9,579 nt of DNA. Source: an uncultured archaeon (GTDB lineage: Archaea; Thermoproteota; Nitrososphaeria; Nitrososphaerales; Nitrosopumilaceae). The notes under the pieces were generated by a model that was not told the DNA's origin, ran no database searches, and was given only the letters and a program-made list of their open reading frames with translations. Both the position numbers and the translations under genes were made by a program. This document shows, piece after piece, positions 1-9,155 of this stretch. The DNA is taken from contig CALBNQ010000018.1 in NCBI GenBank assembly GCA_937896495.1, positions 1 to 9,579 of the forward strand, written 5' to 3'. Position 1 is the stretch's first letter; every line of letters begins with the position of its first letter.

Positions 1-34
1 ATAGAAAAAGTGCATTAGCACACTTTTTTTCTAT
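1..34. terminator. Bidirectional hairpin with T-tracts
   Basis: An inverted repeat pairs AAAAAGTG (5-12) with CACTTTTT (21-28). An alternative core pairs GTGC (10-13) with GCAC (18-21) around an ATTA loop. Seven T follow on the plus strand (24-30), and five T follow the stem on the minus strand. It lies 28 bp past the stop of the 31-aa cysteine-rich gene and could also end a gene entering from the left, so it would work in either direction. Archaea mostly terminate on T-tracts, so the hairpin itself may matter less than the T runs. Confidence 0.5.
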
Positions 35-62: not shown

Positions 63-158
63 TTAATGACGTGGATCATAGTGACAATCACAATTACAAT
101 TTGCAGTACATTTTATTCTAAAACAATCAGCACATGATTTTCTATATTGCCAAGTCAT
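63..158 (-). CDS. 31-aa cysteine-rich small protein, putative metal binder
   Basis: This short gene reads as a 31-residue protein with six Cys (9, 12, 17, 21, 23, 25) plus His26 and His31. The pattern is CxxC-x4-C-x3-CxCxCH, which strongly suggests Zn, Fe-S or Cu binding in the cytoplasm, as no signal peptide is visible. An in-frame TGA lies two codons before the ATG, so this is the only possible ATG start. A TATA-like TTAAAATAAT sits 21-30 bases upstream, the distance expected for a leaderless archaeal transcript. All six Cys use TGT, in keeping with the AT-rich genome. It lies 94 bp downstream of the CDGSH iron-sulfur gene on the same strand, so two small metal-type proteins are neighbours. 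I do not recognise the family. The function is inferred from composition only, and a chance ORF cannot be fully excluded. Confidence 0.6.
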   Translation of the reverse strand: MTWQYRKSCADCFRIKCTANCNCDCHYDPRH

Positions 159-178
159 GTTTCAGTATATACAACAAT

Positions 179-188
179 ATTATTTTAA
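179..188 (-). promoter_or_regulatory. TATA-like box of the cysteine-rich gene
   Basis: TTAAAATAAT on the minus strand ends 21 bases before the ATG at 158. Transcription about 25 bases from the box centre would begin at or next to the start codon, giving a leaderless mRNA. The region is AT-rich, so the match alone is weak; the spacing is what supports it. Confidence 0.45.
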
Positions 189-252
189 TTTCATTGATTC
201 ATTTCTGAATAACTGTTTAACTAATTGCTATTTTTTATACAAATAATTTTGA

Positions 253-2626: not shown

Positions 2627-3111
2627 TTTTTAGAACCTATTTTGATATTTTGTTTCTTGATCACTTTTCTTAGTTTTAATGCGGAAATTCCTACAAATCC
2701 AAAGATTATGAACAATCCTCCATATGCTAAAGGTTGACTATACTCTATTAGAATAGATGAGACTCCAGTACCCACAATACCTGGAAGTAACGATAAAGCA
2801 TACAACCACCATCCACAGCAGCCTAATGGAACCAGGGAGAAAAATGAAAAAAATGATGTAGTTGCAGTACTGCCTGCATTTCCTCCAAATGACTTTTTCT
2901 TTAATGAGCAACCTAATTTTTTGCTCTTCTCTGAGATAAACACCTGAAGACCAATACCTATTCCCATTCCAAAAATAACAATTGAATTAAGTTGTAATGC
3001 TGCATTAATTGCATCAAGAGGTAATAATGCAGGAGTGGTAAATACTACTACTGAAAGATAAATTACTATAGTAATACTTCCAACAAGGATTGCTTTTTGA
3101 ATCGGTCTCAT
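2614..3111 (-). CDS. Four-TM membrane protein with vicinal Cys pair
   Basis: A 165-aa membrane protein with about four hydrophobic segments (residues 6-30, 41-60, 82-116, 127-146). A Lys-rich loop with Cys68 follows the second segment, the Cys98-Cys99 pair lies inside the third (PLGCCGWW), and the tail is basic. I do not recognise a named family. The segment from the Cys pair onward, about 22 residues to a Pro-containing turn (IEYSQPL) and then a last TM, recalls the layout of the mercury transporter MerT, but the resemblance is by eye only. The start ATG overlaps the stop of the DUF3179 gene as ATGA, so the two are almost certainly co-transcribed and translationally coupled and probably work together at the membrane. 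The gene end overlaps the convergent permease gene by 13 bp. Confidence 0.8.
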   Translation of the reverse strand: MRPIQKAILVGSITIVIYLSVVVFTTPALLPLDAINAALQLNSIVIFGMGIGIGLQVFISEKSKKLGCSLKKKSFGGNAGSTATTSFFSFFSLVPLGCCGWWLYALSLLPGIVGTGVSSILIEYSQPLAYGGLFIIFGFVGISALKLRKVIKKQNIKIGSKNYSS

Positions 3112-4199
3112 GGTGTTACTCCATAAACCAAAGTATCAGGATGAAATGAAATCCATGAAAACCAAAATCCTGGATTAATTGATAGTCGAGATAGTTGTTC
3201 TCCTTTCAAAGTACCTGAAATTGATTTGCCATCATAATTCCATACGGACTTTGTGTTGGTATCCAAAATAACTCCATCTTCAAATGTGAAATCCAAGACG
3301 TCATCATTTACCATTCTATCAAATACTCTAGAATTACCTGCAAACATTGAAACAACTAGAATTGATGAATCACCCACTACATCATTAATTATTCCATTTG
3401 ATTCAACATCTGATTGTTTGTATGCTTTGAAAATATCATCTTGATGGAATCCCACAATTACTTCTTTGAGAGGTATTCGGTCATCTTGATTATCTACTGG
3501 GAATAATATTTGTGGATTTGTGTAATAACTTCCATACGGATCAATGCTGTATGACCTGATGTGTCCAGTATCTGTAGTTAACACTAGAGTATCTTGATGT
3601 AATTCTTTCCAGTTGCCCCAAGTAATCATATCAAAGGGAATTGTATCTAGTGTATCCCCACTCAATTCTCCAGTAATTGCAATTCCCAATCCTTGACTCC
3701 AATACGAATCAGTTAATCTATCATACATTACCAAATTACTATTGTATAATTTTCCTGATGTCCCAAATTCAACTGTAGTTCCATCTAATGTCCTATCAAA
3801 GACTTGGTTTGTATAGCATAATGGGCAGTATGTTACAGCTACTGGAGTACCTCCTACAACATCGTTTACTATCTCATGCCACACTAGAATGAATAGAGGA
3901 TATGCCTTTGATTCACCATTAATGCTCAAACCAATCACAATGTCCTCATCTGAAACAAATTGAGAGTCATTAATTGTTGCAAATTTTGGATCATCAATTG
4001 AAGGAATACCATCTTTTGGAGGTCCTCCCCTCCTAATCTTGTCTAATGATATGATGTGTTTTTTACCATCTGTAATCATAATGTCTGATGTTGCAGATGT
4101 AATTTGTACATCAGATTCAGCATCATCTGGAGACATTACTAGAAATGACATAATTCCTGCTATTGCAACTATTCCCAAAAGAACTAGTTTTAGATTCAT
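3108..4199 (-). CDS. DUF3179 domain protein, exported and membrane-anchored
   Basis: A 363-aa protein with a hydrophobic N-terminus (residues 3-21) that acts as a signal peptide or anchor, followed by a large extracytoplasmic domain. The core matches the DUF3179 family: HEIVND (108-113), VTYCPLCYT with Cys125 and Cys128 (122-130), then FGTSGKLYNSNLVMYDR (145-161), SYWSQ (165-169) and the ITGELSG stretch (175-181). DUF3179 has no established activity; the conserved CPLC pair and nearby His suggest metal binding or thiol chemistry, which is inference. The ATG is preceded by ATTAAATATT (4224-4233), a well-placed TATA-like box. It is coupled by ATGA to the downstream four-TM gene and lies 57 bp downstream of the winged-helix regulator on the same strand, so it may be partly under that regulator. 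Confidence 0.92.
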   Translation of the reverse strand: MNLKLVLLGIVAIAGIMSFLVMSPDDAESDVQITSATSDIMITDGKKHIISLDKIRRGGPPKDGIPSIDDPKFATINDSQFVSDEDIVIGLSINGESKAYPLFILVWHEIVNDVVGGTPVAVTYCPLCYTNQVFDRTLDGTTVEFGTSGKLYNSNLVMYDRLTDSYWSQGLGIAITGELSGDTLDTIPFDMITWGNWKELHQDTLVLTTDTGHIRSYSIDPYGSYYTNPQILFPVDNQDDRIPLKEVIVGFHQDDIFKAYKQSDVESNGIINDVVGDSSILVVSMFAGNSRVFDRMVNDDVLDFTFEDGVILDTNTKSVWNYDGKSISGTLKGEQLSRLSINPGFWFSWISFHPDTLVYGVTP

Positions 4200-4256: not shown

Positions 4257-4643
4257 TTATTCAACATATTTTTTCTTTTTATCAAATTTATCTTCCACTT
4301 TTCTAATTACCACATACAACGTTGATAAATTAGATGTAAGCAAGTCTGATGGAAAAAATGTTGCACCATACCCTTCACCTTGTTTTGTAATAAAGCCATT
4401 TTTTTCCAAAACATCAATACTATGAGTTACGGTTTTGTAGTCTAGTTCTAATTTTTTTGATAATTCATTTGGATTTTCAGGATTTTCAGTTATTGCACAA
4501 ATTATTCTCAATCTTGTGAATCGTCCACCCATTCCAGTAAACACAGAGGAGAATCTCTCTTTCATTTGTTTGTCAACTTTGATGTCTTCATAATTTAGAA
4601 CGTCTTTGAAAATTTTACTTTTACATAATGAATCAAATGGCAT
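4257..4643 (-). CDS. Winged-helix transcriptional regulator
   Basis: A small DNA-binding protein, 128 aa from the ATG chosen here. A winged helix-turn-helix spans about residues 41-97: RLRIICAI helix, then NELSKKLELDYKTVTHSIDVL (helix-turn-recognition helix), then the wing ending in GYGATFFPSDL. This is the ArsR/MarR-like fold common in archaeal regulators. The Lys-rich C-terminal helix (about 103-126) may dimerise. No metal-sensing Cys cluster is seen; there is only one Cys at 7 and one at 49. The frame stays open to a TTG at 4694, but the TATA-like tract at 4672-4688 would then lie inside the gene, so the ATG at 4643 is preferred. It is divergent from the secreted duplicated-domain gene and upstream of the DUF3179 operon, and it may control either one or itself. 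The ligand is unknown. Confidence 0.8.
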   Translation of the reverse strand: MPFDSLCKSKIFKDVLNYEDIKVDKQMKERFSSVFTGMGGRFTRLRIICAITENPENPNELSKKLELDYKTVTHSIDVLEKNGFITKQGEGYGATFFPSDLLTSNLSTLYVVIRKVEDKFDKKKKYVE

Positions 4644-4737
4644 TATTCTAACAGTATAATCATTATCAAAGAATATAATTTTTTTAAATCTCAATTTGGG
4701 AAACTCCTTTAATAATAAAAATAGAATTTCATACCTA
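4644..4737. promoter_or_regulatory. Divergent promoter region with opposed TATA boxes
   Basis: Between the preferred starts of the regulator and the secreted protein lie two TATA-like tracts. TTTAAAAAAATTATATT (4688-4672, minus) would drive the regulator with a leader of roughly 8-16 bases. TTTAATAATA (4708-4717, plus) lies 21-30 bases before the ATG at 4738 and suits a leaderless mRNA. A perfect 5-1-5 inverted repeat, ATAATcATTAT (4656-4666), falls at the predicted start of the regulator transcript and could be an operator, although such repeats are easy to find in AT-rich DNA. Confidence 0.5.
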
Positions 4738-6043: not shown

Positions 6044-6313
6044 ATGGTAACTGAAAAAGAGATAGAACATGTCTCAAAATTAATGAAAATTGACGTTGAT
6101 GATCATACTGAATATGTAGATAAAGTTCAAAAAATGATTAATTACTTTGATATTTTGGATTCTGCAGGAGTAGAATCTGAAGAAATTTCAATGCCGGAAA
6201 TTTCACTTGAAAGTTTAAGAAAAGATGAACATGTTGCATTTGATGATAAATTAATCGAGAAATTAAATCACTACAAAGGAACCTATGTTCGAGCACCAAA
6301 GATGTCATCATGA
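6044..6313 (+). CDS. gatC: Asp/Glu-tRNA amidotransferase subunit C
   Basis: An 89-aa subunit of GatCAB, which converts mischarged Asp-tRNA(Asn) (and in some organisms Glu-tRNA(Gln)) to the amidated form in the cytoplasm. GatC wraps around GatA and stabilises its contact with GatB. The family pattern is clear: an N-terminal helical region (VTEKEIEHVSKLMKI, then the KVQKMINYFDILD helix at about 28-40), a middle LRKDEH loop where most members have LRxDE, and the C-terminal YVRAPKMSS that matches the usual YFxVPKV tail. The length is typical. It is first in the operon, with a Shine-Dalgarno AGGTG, and its TGA overlaps the gatA ATG. In archaea Gln-tRNA is generally made by GatDE, so the main role here is probably Asn-tRNA; that is established family knowledge, not visible in this window. 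Confidence 0.95.
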   Translation: MVTEKEIEHVSKLMKIDVDDHTEYVDKVQKMINYFDILDSAGVESEEISMPEISLESLRKDEHVAFDDKLIEKLNHYKGTYVRAPKMSS

Positions 6314-7755
6314 ATCTAAAAATTTCTGCTTTAGACTTTGTACAACAAGTACAAAATGGTGATATTTCTGCTGAAGATTTTGTTGCAGAAACAATTCAGA
6401 GAATTCAAAAAATTGATGATGACCTTCACGCATTTTTATCAGTAAATGATGATGCGATTAATCAAGCTAAAAGTATCGATAAAAAAATTAAATCAGGTGA
6501 AAAAGTTGGGGCTTGTTTTGGAATGCCAATATCAATTAAAGATAACATGTGTATCAAAAATAGTAAAACCACATGTGCATCAAAAATGCTTGAAAATTTT
6601 GTGGCACCATATGATGCAACAGTTATCTCAAAACTAAAACAACAAGATGCAATATTTATCGGAAAAGTAAACATGGATGAATTTGCCATGGGGTTGACGA
6701 CCGAATTTAGTGCATATGGTCCAAGTAAAAATCCATGGAATCCAGAATATGTTCCAGGTGGTTCATCTGGTGGAAGTGCAGTATCTGTTAGTGCTTTTGA
6801 ATGTGTAGCATCATTAGGTTCTGATACTGGAGGTTCTGTTAGAAATCCTGCAAGTTTTTGTTCAGTTGTTGGATACAAACCAACGTATGGTTTAATCAGC
6901 AGATATGGATTGATATCATATGCAAATAGTATTGAACAGATTGGCCCATTAACTAGAACTGTCAAGGATACTGCCTTTATGCTAAATATGATTGCAGGAT
7001 TAGATTCAAATGATAACACCACCATTGATAACAAAAATGAAGACTATCTTTCAGGCATAGATTCAGGTATTGAAGGCAAAAAAATAGGCATAATTACTGA
7101 AATGATTGGAGATGGAATTGATTCAACGGTGCTATCTGCAACAAAAGATGCTATTTCAAAACTAGAAGGATTGGGGGCAACATGTGAAGAAGTATCACTG
7201 GATATGGTAAAATATTCAGTTGCAGCATATTACACTATTACAGCTACTGAAGCTGGAAGTAATCTTGCAAGATATGATAATTTGAGATACGGTTATGAAT
7301 TCCCAGTTGAAGGGTATGAGTTTAATTCATACATTTCAAAGGCCAGACAAAAGTTTGGTCCTGAAGTTACACGAAGAATGATTATTGGGGGCTTTGTTCC
7401 ATCTGCAGGACATGCAGGAAAATATTTTCTCAAGGCAATGAAAGTGAAAAGTAAACTAATCAAAGAAATCAATGAAGCATTTAAGAAATTTGATTTACTA
7501 ATTGCACCAACTGTCCCCGTACTACCATTCAAGTTAGGAGAAAAAATTAATGATCCTGTATCTTTGTTTTTAATTGATATCAATACCGTTACTGCAAACC
7601 TTACTGGGAAACCTGCAATTTCTGTACCTTTTGCAATATCTAATGGATTACCAATTGGTATGCAATTGTTTGCAAATTCTAATGAAGATAAATTATTACT
7701 TCAAGCAGCTTGTGCATTAGAAAGTACTGTGAAACTACCAGAGGTTCCAATATGA
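6310..7755 (+). CDS. gatA: Asp/Glu-tRNA amidotransferase subunit A (amidase)
   Basis: A 481-aa amidase-signature enzyme that hydrolyses glutamine or asparagine and passes the ammonia to GatB for transamidation of Asp-tRNA. The catalytic triad is intact: Lys77 in ISIKDN, cis-Ser152 in PGGSSGGSA (149-157), and nucleophile Ser176 in SDTGGSVR (171-178); the spacing matches known GatA enzymes. The PTYGLISRYG segment (191-200) and the C-terminal LTGKPAISVPF (near 430-440) are also family hallmarks, and the length is normal. Its ATG overlaps the gatC stop and its TGA overlaps the gatB start, both as ATGA, so the three subunits are translationally coupled in operon order C-A-B. There is no clear Shine-Dalgarno at its own start, which fits coupling. 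Confidence 0.98.
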   Translation: MNLKISALDFVQQVQNGDISAEDFVAETIQRIQKIDDDLHAFLSVNDDAINQAKSIDKKIKSGEKVGACFGMPISIKDNMCIKNSKTTCASKMLENFVAPYDATVISKLKQQDAIFIGKVNMDEFAMGLTTEFSAYGPSKNPWNPEYVPGGSSGGSAVSVSAFECVASLGSDTGGSVRNPASFCSVVGYKPTYGLISRYGLISYANSIEQIGPLTRTVKDTAFMLNMIAGLDSNDNTTIDNKNEDYLSGIDSGIEGKKIGIITEMIGDGIDSTVLSATKDAISKLEGLGATCEEVSLDMVKYSVAAYYTITATEAGSNLARYDNLRYGYEFPVEGYEFNSYISKARQKFGPEVTRRMIIGGFVPSAGHAGKYFLKAMKVKSKLIKEINEAFKKFDLLIAPTVPVLPFKLGEKINDPVSLFLIDINTVTANLTGKPAISVPFAISNGLPIGMQLFANSNEDKLLLQAACALESTVKLPEVPI

Positions 7756-9155
7756 CCAAAATTGGTTTAGAAATTCATTGTCAGCTAACACATTTGAAAA
7801 GCAAGTTATTTTGTTCATGTAAGGCAAATTATAGGGAATTTGAGATTAATGAAAATATTTGTCCTGTTTGTATGGGGTTACCTGGAAGTCTTCCAAGATT
7901 AAATCAAGAAGCAGTAAAAAAAGCAACAATCATTGCAATGGCGTTAAACTGCTCAACTCCTGAAAAAATTGCATTTTTTAGAAAAAATTATTTTTATCCT
8001 GATTTGCCTAAAAACTTTCAAATCACACAACTCAATATTTACGGAGACACAAGTGTGGGCGGTTCAGGTTCCATAATGGTTGGGGATAAAAAAATTAGGA
8101 TTACTAGAATTCAACTAGAAGAAGATCCTGGTAGATTAATCTATGAAGGAAGCTCATCTAAGAATCAAATCACATTAGTGGATTACAATCGTGCAGGTAC
8201 GCCTCTAGTAGAGATTGTGACAGAACCTGATTTTGAGAGTCCTAAACAAGTTAGAGAGTTTCTCAATATTTTATCAGATTTATTAGAAAATTTAGGTGTG
8301 TCTGATCCTAGTTTGGAAGGTGCAATGAGAGCTGATGCCAATGTATCCATTGAGGGTGGAAATAAAGTAGAGGTAAAAAATATCGGTTCATTTCATGATT
8401 TAGAAAAAGCAGCTCATTTTGAGATTACCAGGCAAAACAGCTTGCATTCAAGAGATATTGAAATTGTTCAAGAGACAAGACATTGGGACGACAAAAGAAA
8501 GATTACTGTATCATCTCGTTCAAAAGAAGAAGATTTGGATTATCGCTATTTTCTTGAAGGAGATATTCCATGGGTTACAATGAATGATGGAATCGTAGAT
8601 GAATTAAAATCAGAAATGCCTGAAAGTATTAATTCAAAAAAAGAAAGATATATTTCAAAATACACCATACCAGTCCAAGTATCTGAGGTTTTGTCATCTG
8701 ACAAATATTATTCAGATTTGTTTGAACAATCCCATAACGAATCTAATGCAAAAGAGATTGCAAATATAATTACAACTGATTTGATGGGACTTGTGGATAC
8801 TAGAGAGAAAAGAGATAAATCAAAAATGACATCCAAACATTTGTCTGATTTGGCAGACTCTATTCAATCTGGAAAGATATCTAGAAACTCTTCAAAAAAT
8901 GCATTACATGAAATCGTAAAAACAGGAAAAGAACTTTCTCAAATTATTTCAGAATTAGATTTGGGTAATGTGTCTGATGAATCAGAACTTGCAGGAATTA
9001 TTTCTGAAGTAATTAGTGCTGAACCTCAAGCAGTAGAGCAAGCAAAATCAAACCCTCAAACAATTAATTATTTGGTGGGTAAAGTAATGCAAAAAACAAA
9101 AGGTAAGGCAGATCCTACAAAGACTTTGGATTTACTAAAAAAACAATTAACTTAA
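7752..9155 (+). CDS. gatB: Asp/Glu-tRNA amidotransferase subunit B
   Basis: A 467-aa tRNA-binding and kinase/transamidase subunit that activates the tRNA-bound Asp or Glu with ATP and transfers ammonia channelled from GatA. It begins with the family motif KIGLEIHCQL (3-12). Four Cys form the zinc site (C21, C23, C37, C40 in FCSC and CPVC). Core motifs follow: FYPDLPKNFQITQ (81-93), DYNRAGTPLVEIVTEPD (144-160), MRADANVSI (192-200) and DYRYF (263-267). The usual RYFPEPDLP is RYFLEGDIP here. The C-terminal YqeY-like tRNA-binding region is about 330-467. The frame is open to an earlier start at 7710, but ATG 7752 is chosen because it gives the conserved N-terminus, overlaps the gatA stop as ATGA and has GAGGT (7741-7745) six bases upstream. 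Confidence 0.98.
   Translation: MTKIGLEIHCQLTHLKSKLFCSCKANYREFEINENICPVCMGLPGSLPRLNQEAVKKATIIAMALNCSTPEKIAFFRKNYFYPDLPKNFQITQLNIYGDTSVGGSGSIMVGDKKIRITRIQLEEDPGRLIYEGSSSKNQITLVDYNRAGTPLVEIVTEPDFESPKQVREFLNILSDLLENLGVSDPSLEGAMRADANVSIEGGNKVEVKNIGSFHDLEKAAHFEITRQNSLHSRDIEIVQETRHWDDKRKITVSSRSKEEDLDYRYFLEGDIPWVTMNDGIVDELKSEMPESINSKKERYISKYTIPVQVSEVLSSDKYYSDLFEQSHNESNAKEIANIITTDLMGLVDTREKRDKSKMTSKHLSDLADSIQSGKISRNSSKNALHEIVKTGKELSQIISELDLGNVSDESELAGIISEVISAEPQAVEQAKSNPQTINYLVGKVMQKTKGKADPTKTLDLLKKQLT

Follow-up and report, generated by a model that had tools for sequence, protein, structure and literature searches.

At the edge of an archaeal contig, a frame of 31 codons spells out six cysteines, and the locus raises two questions: whether so short a frame is a gene at all and, if it is, what kind of protein it encodes. 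The window, by which is meant the whole stretch of DNA analysed here, is one entire contig (C18) of 9579 bases, from a genome of 1.25 Mb in 243 contigs, and the frame sits at the contig edge. It opens with an ATG at 158-156 and closes with a TAA at 65-63, and its product is MTWQYRKSCADCFRIKCTANCNCDCHYDPRH. A sequence-only reading of this DNA had fixed the start by an in-frame stop two codons ahead of the ATG, where a TGA can indeed be read, and had given a spacing of cysteines and histidines that is present as described (Cys 9, 12, 17, 21, 23 and 25, His26 and the C-terminal His31). It had also considered such an array unlikely to arise by chance; in agreement with this, the Cys/His pattern at the DNA level occurs once in the window and in none of 200 dinucleotide shuffles. 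The features of the window and the tails of the related subfamilies are collected in Table 1.

Table 1. Features of the window, with the sequence marks of the subfamilies and the positions of certain related members (L numbers denote loci in other genomes).
Feature	Coordinates	Strand	Basis or characteristics
31-aa micro-protein gene, subfamily D	63..158	-	ORF listing, homologues, substitution pattern
Predicted metal-binding core CADCFRIKCTANCNCDCH	81..134	-	C9, C12, C17, C21, C23, C25, H26; also D11, D24
A/T-rich hairpin with T tract after the stop	1..34	-	Folding z-score
Promoter-proximal region	159..218	-	Alignment of five subfamily-D upstream regions
CDGSH-type protein, 80 aa	253..495	-	PF09360 match; judged outside the micro-protein's module
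DUF3179 protein	3108..4199	-	358 bits; gene adjoins a 165-residue protein without Pfam match over the cut-off
Winged-helix (ArsR-like HTH_5) protein	4257..4694		Beside the DUF3179 gene
Frames read by eye as gatC, gatA, gatB	6044..9155	+	
Members ending CDCHP	L181 6982-7074; L190 4758-4841; L128 6003-6086		
Subfamily A			MNTAPYW...CDCHQLRDR
Subfamily B			...CDCHW
Subfamily C			KSGRSKGC; one additional residue between third and fourth Cys
Subfamily D (the window's)			C.DC.R..C..NC.CDCH(Y/F)DPR
Subfamily E			SYYRRKRC...CDCHYEPR
Other members			Some end CDCHP..W

Homologue searches place the frame in a family of mostly 26-36-residue proteins with the core C-x-D-C-x4-C-x3(4)-C-x-C-D-C-H. The window protein carries the six cysteines, D11, D24 and H26 in this spacing, and the family profile matches its gene at E 2.1e-12. 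With the 31-residue protein as query, a second copy was found in the same genome (contig C209; 22 residues aligned at 64% identity), and 33 of 61 genomes, its own counted, gave matches at E<=1. Of the 201 genomes of the order, a 14-row profile reached 60 at E<=0.1 and 42 at E<=0.001, 41 of the latter belonging to what we take, from record titles and taxonomy, to be the Nitrosopumilaceae and one lying outside, with a stop in its match. When the profile was built from DNA references only, 35 of 300 genomes of the phylum matched at E<=0.001, every one of them from the Nitrosopumilaceae, and at least nine Nitrosopumilaceae genomes in that set had no match; at this threshold and among these 300 genomes, the family appears to be confined to the Nitrosopumilaceae.

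A degenerate DNA pattern run against a collection of 84,980 species found at least 118 stretches, 115 of which contain a short in-frame family member. By their record titles, the matches listed come from the Nitrosopumilus / Nitrosarchaeum / Nitrosotenuis / Nitrosotalea group; those listed also include three Nitrososphaeraceae MAGs and two bacterial records, one (L063) holding a long unrelated frame that is not a family member and the other (L117) being a 3-kb contig in a bacterial MAG, which may have been mis-binned. Of the remaining two stretches not counted among the 115, L086 is interrupted by a stop and L123 carries a long C-terminal extension. No exact match to the pattern was found among the IMG/VR viruses. 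Several copies can share a genome: G150 has seven intact ones, and G135 has seven matches, of which one carries a stop and one is partial.

The 158 distinct members (154 proteins) sort into groups by their tails, and the labels A to E, with a remainder of other members, were assigned here on that basis. T3, P5, W7, R32, D33 and R34 are invariant in 58 of the 63 A-type proteins (the 36-residue ones), and the five D-type proteins have Y5, K7, D28, P29 and R30 in common. Subfamily D was found in five of 95 genomes of the genus (E 2.9e-21 to 6.7e-20), the next matches belonging to other subfamilies (9.3e-11 or weaker). In a 57-row alignment nine residues never vary, an invariance that is largely by construction because the majority of rows came from a DNA pattern demanding just those nine motif residues. 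Among loci recovered through searches by sequence or by profile, in which the motif was not demanded, the full ligand set (six Cys, two Asp and the His) is kept in 69 of 73 frames at profile E<=1e-3; the four exceptions are a Trp for the third Cys (L197), one C-type CSCH and a pair of copies that are truncated or decayed. CSCH or CECH is also read in five more C-type copies, which adjoin pattern-found members. Judged by this count and by the nature of the exceptions, the cysteines and the histidine appear to be nearly fixed across the family, with the second Asp apparently variable in the C-type. In-frame stops or lost cysteines were also noted in the copies at L086 (6447-6500, minus strand), L186 and L187, which probably reflect decay or sequencing errors.

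The sequence-only reading had looked for support to the conservation of the frame and its Cys codons in close relatives, which the homologue searches bear out, and to purifying selection, which is clear in subfamilies A and B and in subfamily D comes mainly from the motif codons. Nei-Gojobori counts over 25 core codons gave a median dN/dS of 0.10 in A (all 463 usable pairs below 1), 0.19 in B (212 of 212) and 0.22 in D (9 of 9), values that are pulled down by the motif-based choice of members. Since many members had been selected by the motif, the counts were repeated on the 16 non-motif codons, and the medians became 0.19 in A (831 of 840 pairs below 1), 0.42 in B (541 of 564), 0.61 in D (6 of 6), 0.43 in E (4 of 4) and 0.93 in the mixed 'other' group (28 of 46). 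A-type members from motif-free searches alone gave 0.09 over 25 codons and 0.19 over 16. Pairs with a synonymous p-distance of 0.70 or more were left out. Over 25 codons, 645 of 1953 pairs were kept and 463 used in A, 303 of 1485 and 212 in B, 10 of 10 and 9 in D, 3 of 15 and 2 in E, and 30 of 105 and 23 (22 of them below 1) in the other group; over 16 codons, the figures were 1035 of 1953 and 840 in A, 693 of 1485 and 564 in B, and 8 of 10 and 6 in D. The window gene differs from its four D relatives by p-distances of 0.49-0.68 at synonymous and 0.22-0.27 at non-synonymous sites, and all the ratios given here are rough because synonymous sites are near saturation.

On these substitution patterns, subfamilies A and B clearly appear to be under constraint at the protein level, and the mixed group seems to drift outside the motif. 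Purifying selection is also indicated for the frame of the window gene, the D pairs being few and their synonymous sites near saturation; because of the higher ratio outside the motif codons, the support from selection in D is mainly that of the motif, and constraint would lie mainly there and in the DPR tail. A structured RNA in place of a protein is rejected on the codon-position entropies of subfamily A (0.28/0.20/1.03 overall and 0.43/0.32/1.19 outside the motif), and Rfam gave no match in positions 1-1300 of the window. That the frame is spurious or decaying, and rich in cysteine by chance, might be argued from the absence of the family from some genomes and from the decayed copies at L086, L186 and L187, but frame, spacing and substitution pattern are all conserved, which makes this exceedingly improbable. 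As far as comparison among relatives can tell, the frame at 158-63 is a genuine coding gene.

Signals on either side of the gene had also been pointed out. The TATA-like box that the earlier reading saw upstream is present as a TATA-like stretch, AAAATAATAT, at 186-177, 19-28 nt before the ATG, with AGAAAT at 206-201. The five D upstream regions, when aligned, have an invariant AGAAAT and a common A/T box about 20-30 nt before the ATG; from -60 to -1, three of the five are 76-85% identical, compared with 38-50% from -200 to -121, and the region of the window is looser (56-58% identity to any of these three). From this arrangement we infer a leaderless transcript. The box was also considered as the mark of a regulon and rejected: a 21-base pattern of it, searched in five genomes with up to three mismatches, matched exactly only before the D gene in its three source genomes, missed the window's own D gene and that of G112 even at three mismatches, and gave other matches that all had three mismatches and were no more numerous than those of a reversed-pattern control. 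Downstream, the T-tract hairpin of the earlier reading holds as a stable fold at 34-1 (-10.4 kcal/mol, z -3.97, none of 200 shuffles as stable), whereas a scan for consensus terminators reports none. The hairpin is G+C-poor, lies at the contig end and reads nearly identically on either strand; being so nearly symmetric it may serve either strand, and it is a possible transcript end.

The protein encoded next to the micro-protein does match zf-CDGSH, as had been claimed. The sequence-only reading had gone further and proposed that the two genes form a functional module, for which the window itself speaks, both genes lying on the same strand with 94 nt between them, but co-occurrence or linkage is lacking elsewhere. 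The CDGSH gene was detected in 8 of 101 Nitrosopumilaceae genomes, its own counted, which proves the query to work; no family member lies within about 1.5 kb on either side in any of the seven other full CDGSH loci, and the gene is absent from the four other subfamily-D genomes. As a conserved unit the module is rejected and must be regarded as very improbable, with a local co-transcript in the window's species alone being possible. The likeness of the family to CDGSH proteins (PF09360) is that of a gene neighbour in the window, whose linkage is not conserved, and the tiny protein matches no Pfam model. The nearest relatives of the CDGSH gene (70-73%) are copies in another genus (g29; L201-L207), and from this and its rarity it may have been acquired laterally.

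Tight gene pairs are found in the sister subfamilies A and B and were not seen in subfamily D. Among the 62 A-type genes with enough upstream DNA, 34 begin 0-1 nt past the stop of a 73-residue protein, which has two hydrophobic stretches (helices judged by eye) and no Pfam match. In each of the 26 cases measured, the gene of this protein follows a CBS-domain gene after a gap of 5-9 nt. Neighbours were counted at those named loci that have 2.5 kb of flanking DNA on each side (20 of 48 for A and 14 of 47 for B), purB and TFB being recognised by eye; the 20 A loci had CBS genes near 14, Usp genes near 13, the membrane protein near 11 and purB near 8. The tight cluster of CBS, 73-residue membrane protein and A-type genes can be seen in L082, L153, L088 and other A loci, where it is frequently accompanied by a divergent Usp gene and by purB behind it. 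A relative's contig (L092) carries homologues of gatC/gatA/gatB and of the window's APC-like transporter near two A-type members.

B-type genes are followed in 14 of 57 cases by a small TC.H...YEC..C protein, which is zinc-ribbon-like, carries no name and stands right behind the B-type gene in L094, L152, L157, L177, L182 and L193. In L172 and L175 a C-type gene comes after the E-type gene, and members ending in CDCHP plus aromatic residues precede by 3-6 nt a protein of 52-57 residues that begins M(K/R)VEIVQS. For subfamily D, a counterpart of the 218-aa neighbour of the window gene, 75% identical to it, was found in G012, where about 158 kb separate it from the D gene.

None of 57 members matches a Pfam family at E<=0.1 or a PHROGs model, and the sole NCBIfam match among them is one marginal ferredoxin hit. 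A 42-residue C-type member, used as query in a protein search, returned eight proteins, none with a name or domain, and no description of such a six-Cys micro-protein family was found in the titles and abstracts of the open-access literature searched. The suggestion that the protein was not described before can thus be upheld for the model libraries and for literature of that scope. The family appears to lie outside any named family, archaeal zinc micro-proteins being already known as a kind. One-domain C(P)XCG zinc finger micro-proteins, such as HVO_2753 and HVO_0758, have been reported in Haloferax volcanii (PMC6562870, PMC11241148, PMC10716476), and deletions of haloarchaeal members alter biofilm and swarming (PMC6562870). 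As far as the available text of these papers goes, they resemble the present family in being archaeal, shorter than 70 residues, rich in cysteine and several to a genome, and they have paired C(P)XCG knuckles with four cysteines. The window's family, in contrast, has six cysteines and a histidine in 18 residues and no CPXCG; the only CxxC in the window protein is CADC, followed by Phe, the remainder being CxCxCH. The model of the HVO_0416 zinc finger (NF041910, cut-off 80 bits) does not match the window protein; its score against one B-type member is 11.5 bits (E 0.21).

Metal binding would be the natural reading of six cysteines and a histidine, since a 30-residue chain of this kind hardly folds without metal or disulfides. 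The explanation we prefer, at somewhat short of an even chance, is that the window gene encodes a multi-copy micro-metalloprotein adaptor, probably a zinc one, that docks onto partners. Six cysteines and one histidine would clasp a metal ion, most probably zinc, and metal binding would let the 30-residue chain fold as a metal-nucleated core, which the subfamily-specific tails would dock onto partner proteins. In subfamily A the gene immediately upstream encodes the small membrane protein whose cytosolic tail is the predicted partner, so that the adaptor reading names a partner gene for this sister subfamily, not for D. Tails that are fixed within subfamilies and different between them suggest a specific partner surface, and their fixity argues against a loose metal sponge. 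As to the identity of the metal, we infer zinc before iron-sulfur or copper. AlphaFold2, run on the window protein and 56 relatives, gave a mean pLDDT of 59; an uninformative outcome is to be expected from the haloarchaeal zinc micro-protein work, which in its available text has AlphaFold2 unable to distinguish metal-filled from empty zinc pockets (PMC11241148).

The resemblances that were found point to ferredoxins and none to zinc fingers, which would speak against zinc but does not appear to survive the number of comparisons made. The cysteines of the N-terminal motif of seven-iron ferredoxins have known roles as ligands, and an iron-sulfur micro-protein, with a small cluster for electron transfer or sensing, would fit a C-x2-C-x4-C-x3-C-x3-C spacing that matches the N-terminal half of these proteins (FdxA, Azotobacter ferredoxin I), together with the shared run of D-C-aromatic/His. 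The only PDB matches of the profile at E<=10 are four ferredoxins with the five-Cys spacing (best E 0.15), one of them titled 7FE FERREDOXIN I, and one of 57 members matches FdxA at E 0.0014. Once the searches are counted, these scores are not significant, and they do not support descent from a ferredoxin; the micro-protein, moreover, has an extra Cys, no second half and no CP motif, the Pro after the fourth Cys being replaced and the remote ligands missing, and the 31-aa window protein gives no match to the FdxA model (NF045490). The FdxA cut-off was reached in none of 41 family genomes, with weaker matches in nine, a weak test since only one of 14 control genomes reaches it. An iron-sulfur protein thus appears rather unlikely.

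Two other functions were considered. A DNA- or RNA-binding regulator, in which basic residues round the metal core touch nucleic acid, could draw on the Arg two residues past the CxDC pair in 148 of 158 members and on a TFB-like match about 0.1-0.75 kb from the D gene in three of five D loci (one being a 143-residue piece). In G112, however, the roughly 8 kb that flank the D gene in each direction contain no TFB, nor does one lie near the D gene of the window on the one side that the contig edge leaves; and as Nitrosopumilus has several TFB genes, such neighbours are likely to be due to chance. A regulator of this type is regarded as unlikely. A copper(I) thionein or copper chaperone, its CxCxCH buffering or delivering Cu(I), would suit six thiols within 17 residues and a distribution confined, among the genomes searched, to one family of copper-dependent ammonia oxidizers. 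Bacterial and eukaryotic metallothioneins are short chains rich in CxC, and the family is similar in that respect, but near-fixed spacing, conservation beyond the ligands and tails peculiar to each subfamily do not resemble a metal sponge, none of the 57 members matches a Pfam model, and no copper gene was found beside the micro-protein gene. In the available text of a study of copper limitation in Nitrososphaera viennensis, which belongs to another family, the protein named is a different one, an 18-Cys storage protein (PMC7785015). A copper protein is accordingly regarded as quite unlikely.

Much of the nitrification in the sea is the work of ammonia-oxidizing archaea, which rely on copper and iron enzymes and whose metal handling is, to our knowledge, poorly known. 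A conserved, lineage-restricted, multi-copy family of about 30 residues, with no model in Pfam and no credible match in NCBIfam, offers ready targets for proteomics, metal analysis and NMR, and its occurrence suggests that gene models close to the usual length limit in these archaea merit systematic review. The adaptor reading may also be extended, though doubtfully, to a set of up to seven 30-residue metal adaptors per genome with a common thiolate core and interchangeable tails, each with its own partner. The partners would be the membrane protein with its CBS protein in one subfamily and the zinc ribbon in another, the window's adaptor being a free one, and the six cysteines and histidine within 18 residues would form a minimal cluster (two zinc, Cu(I) or Fe-S), for which no solved counterpart was found. 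If this is true, the adaptor set may serve copper-dependent nitrifiers as a layer that senses metals or redox state.
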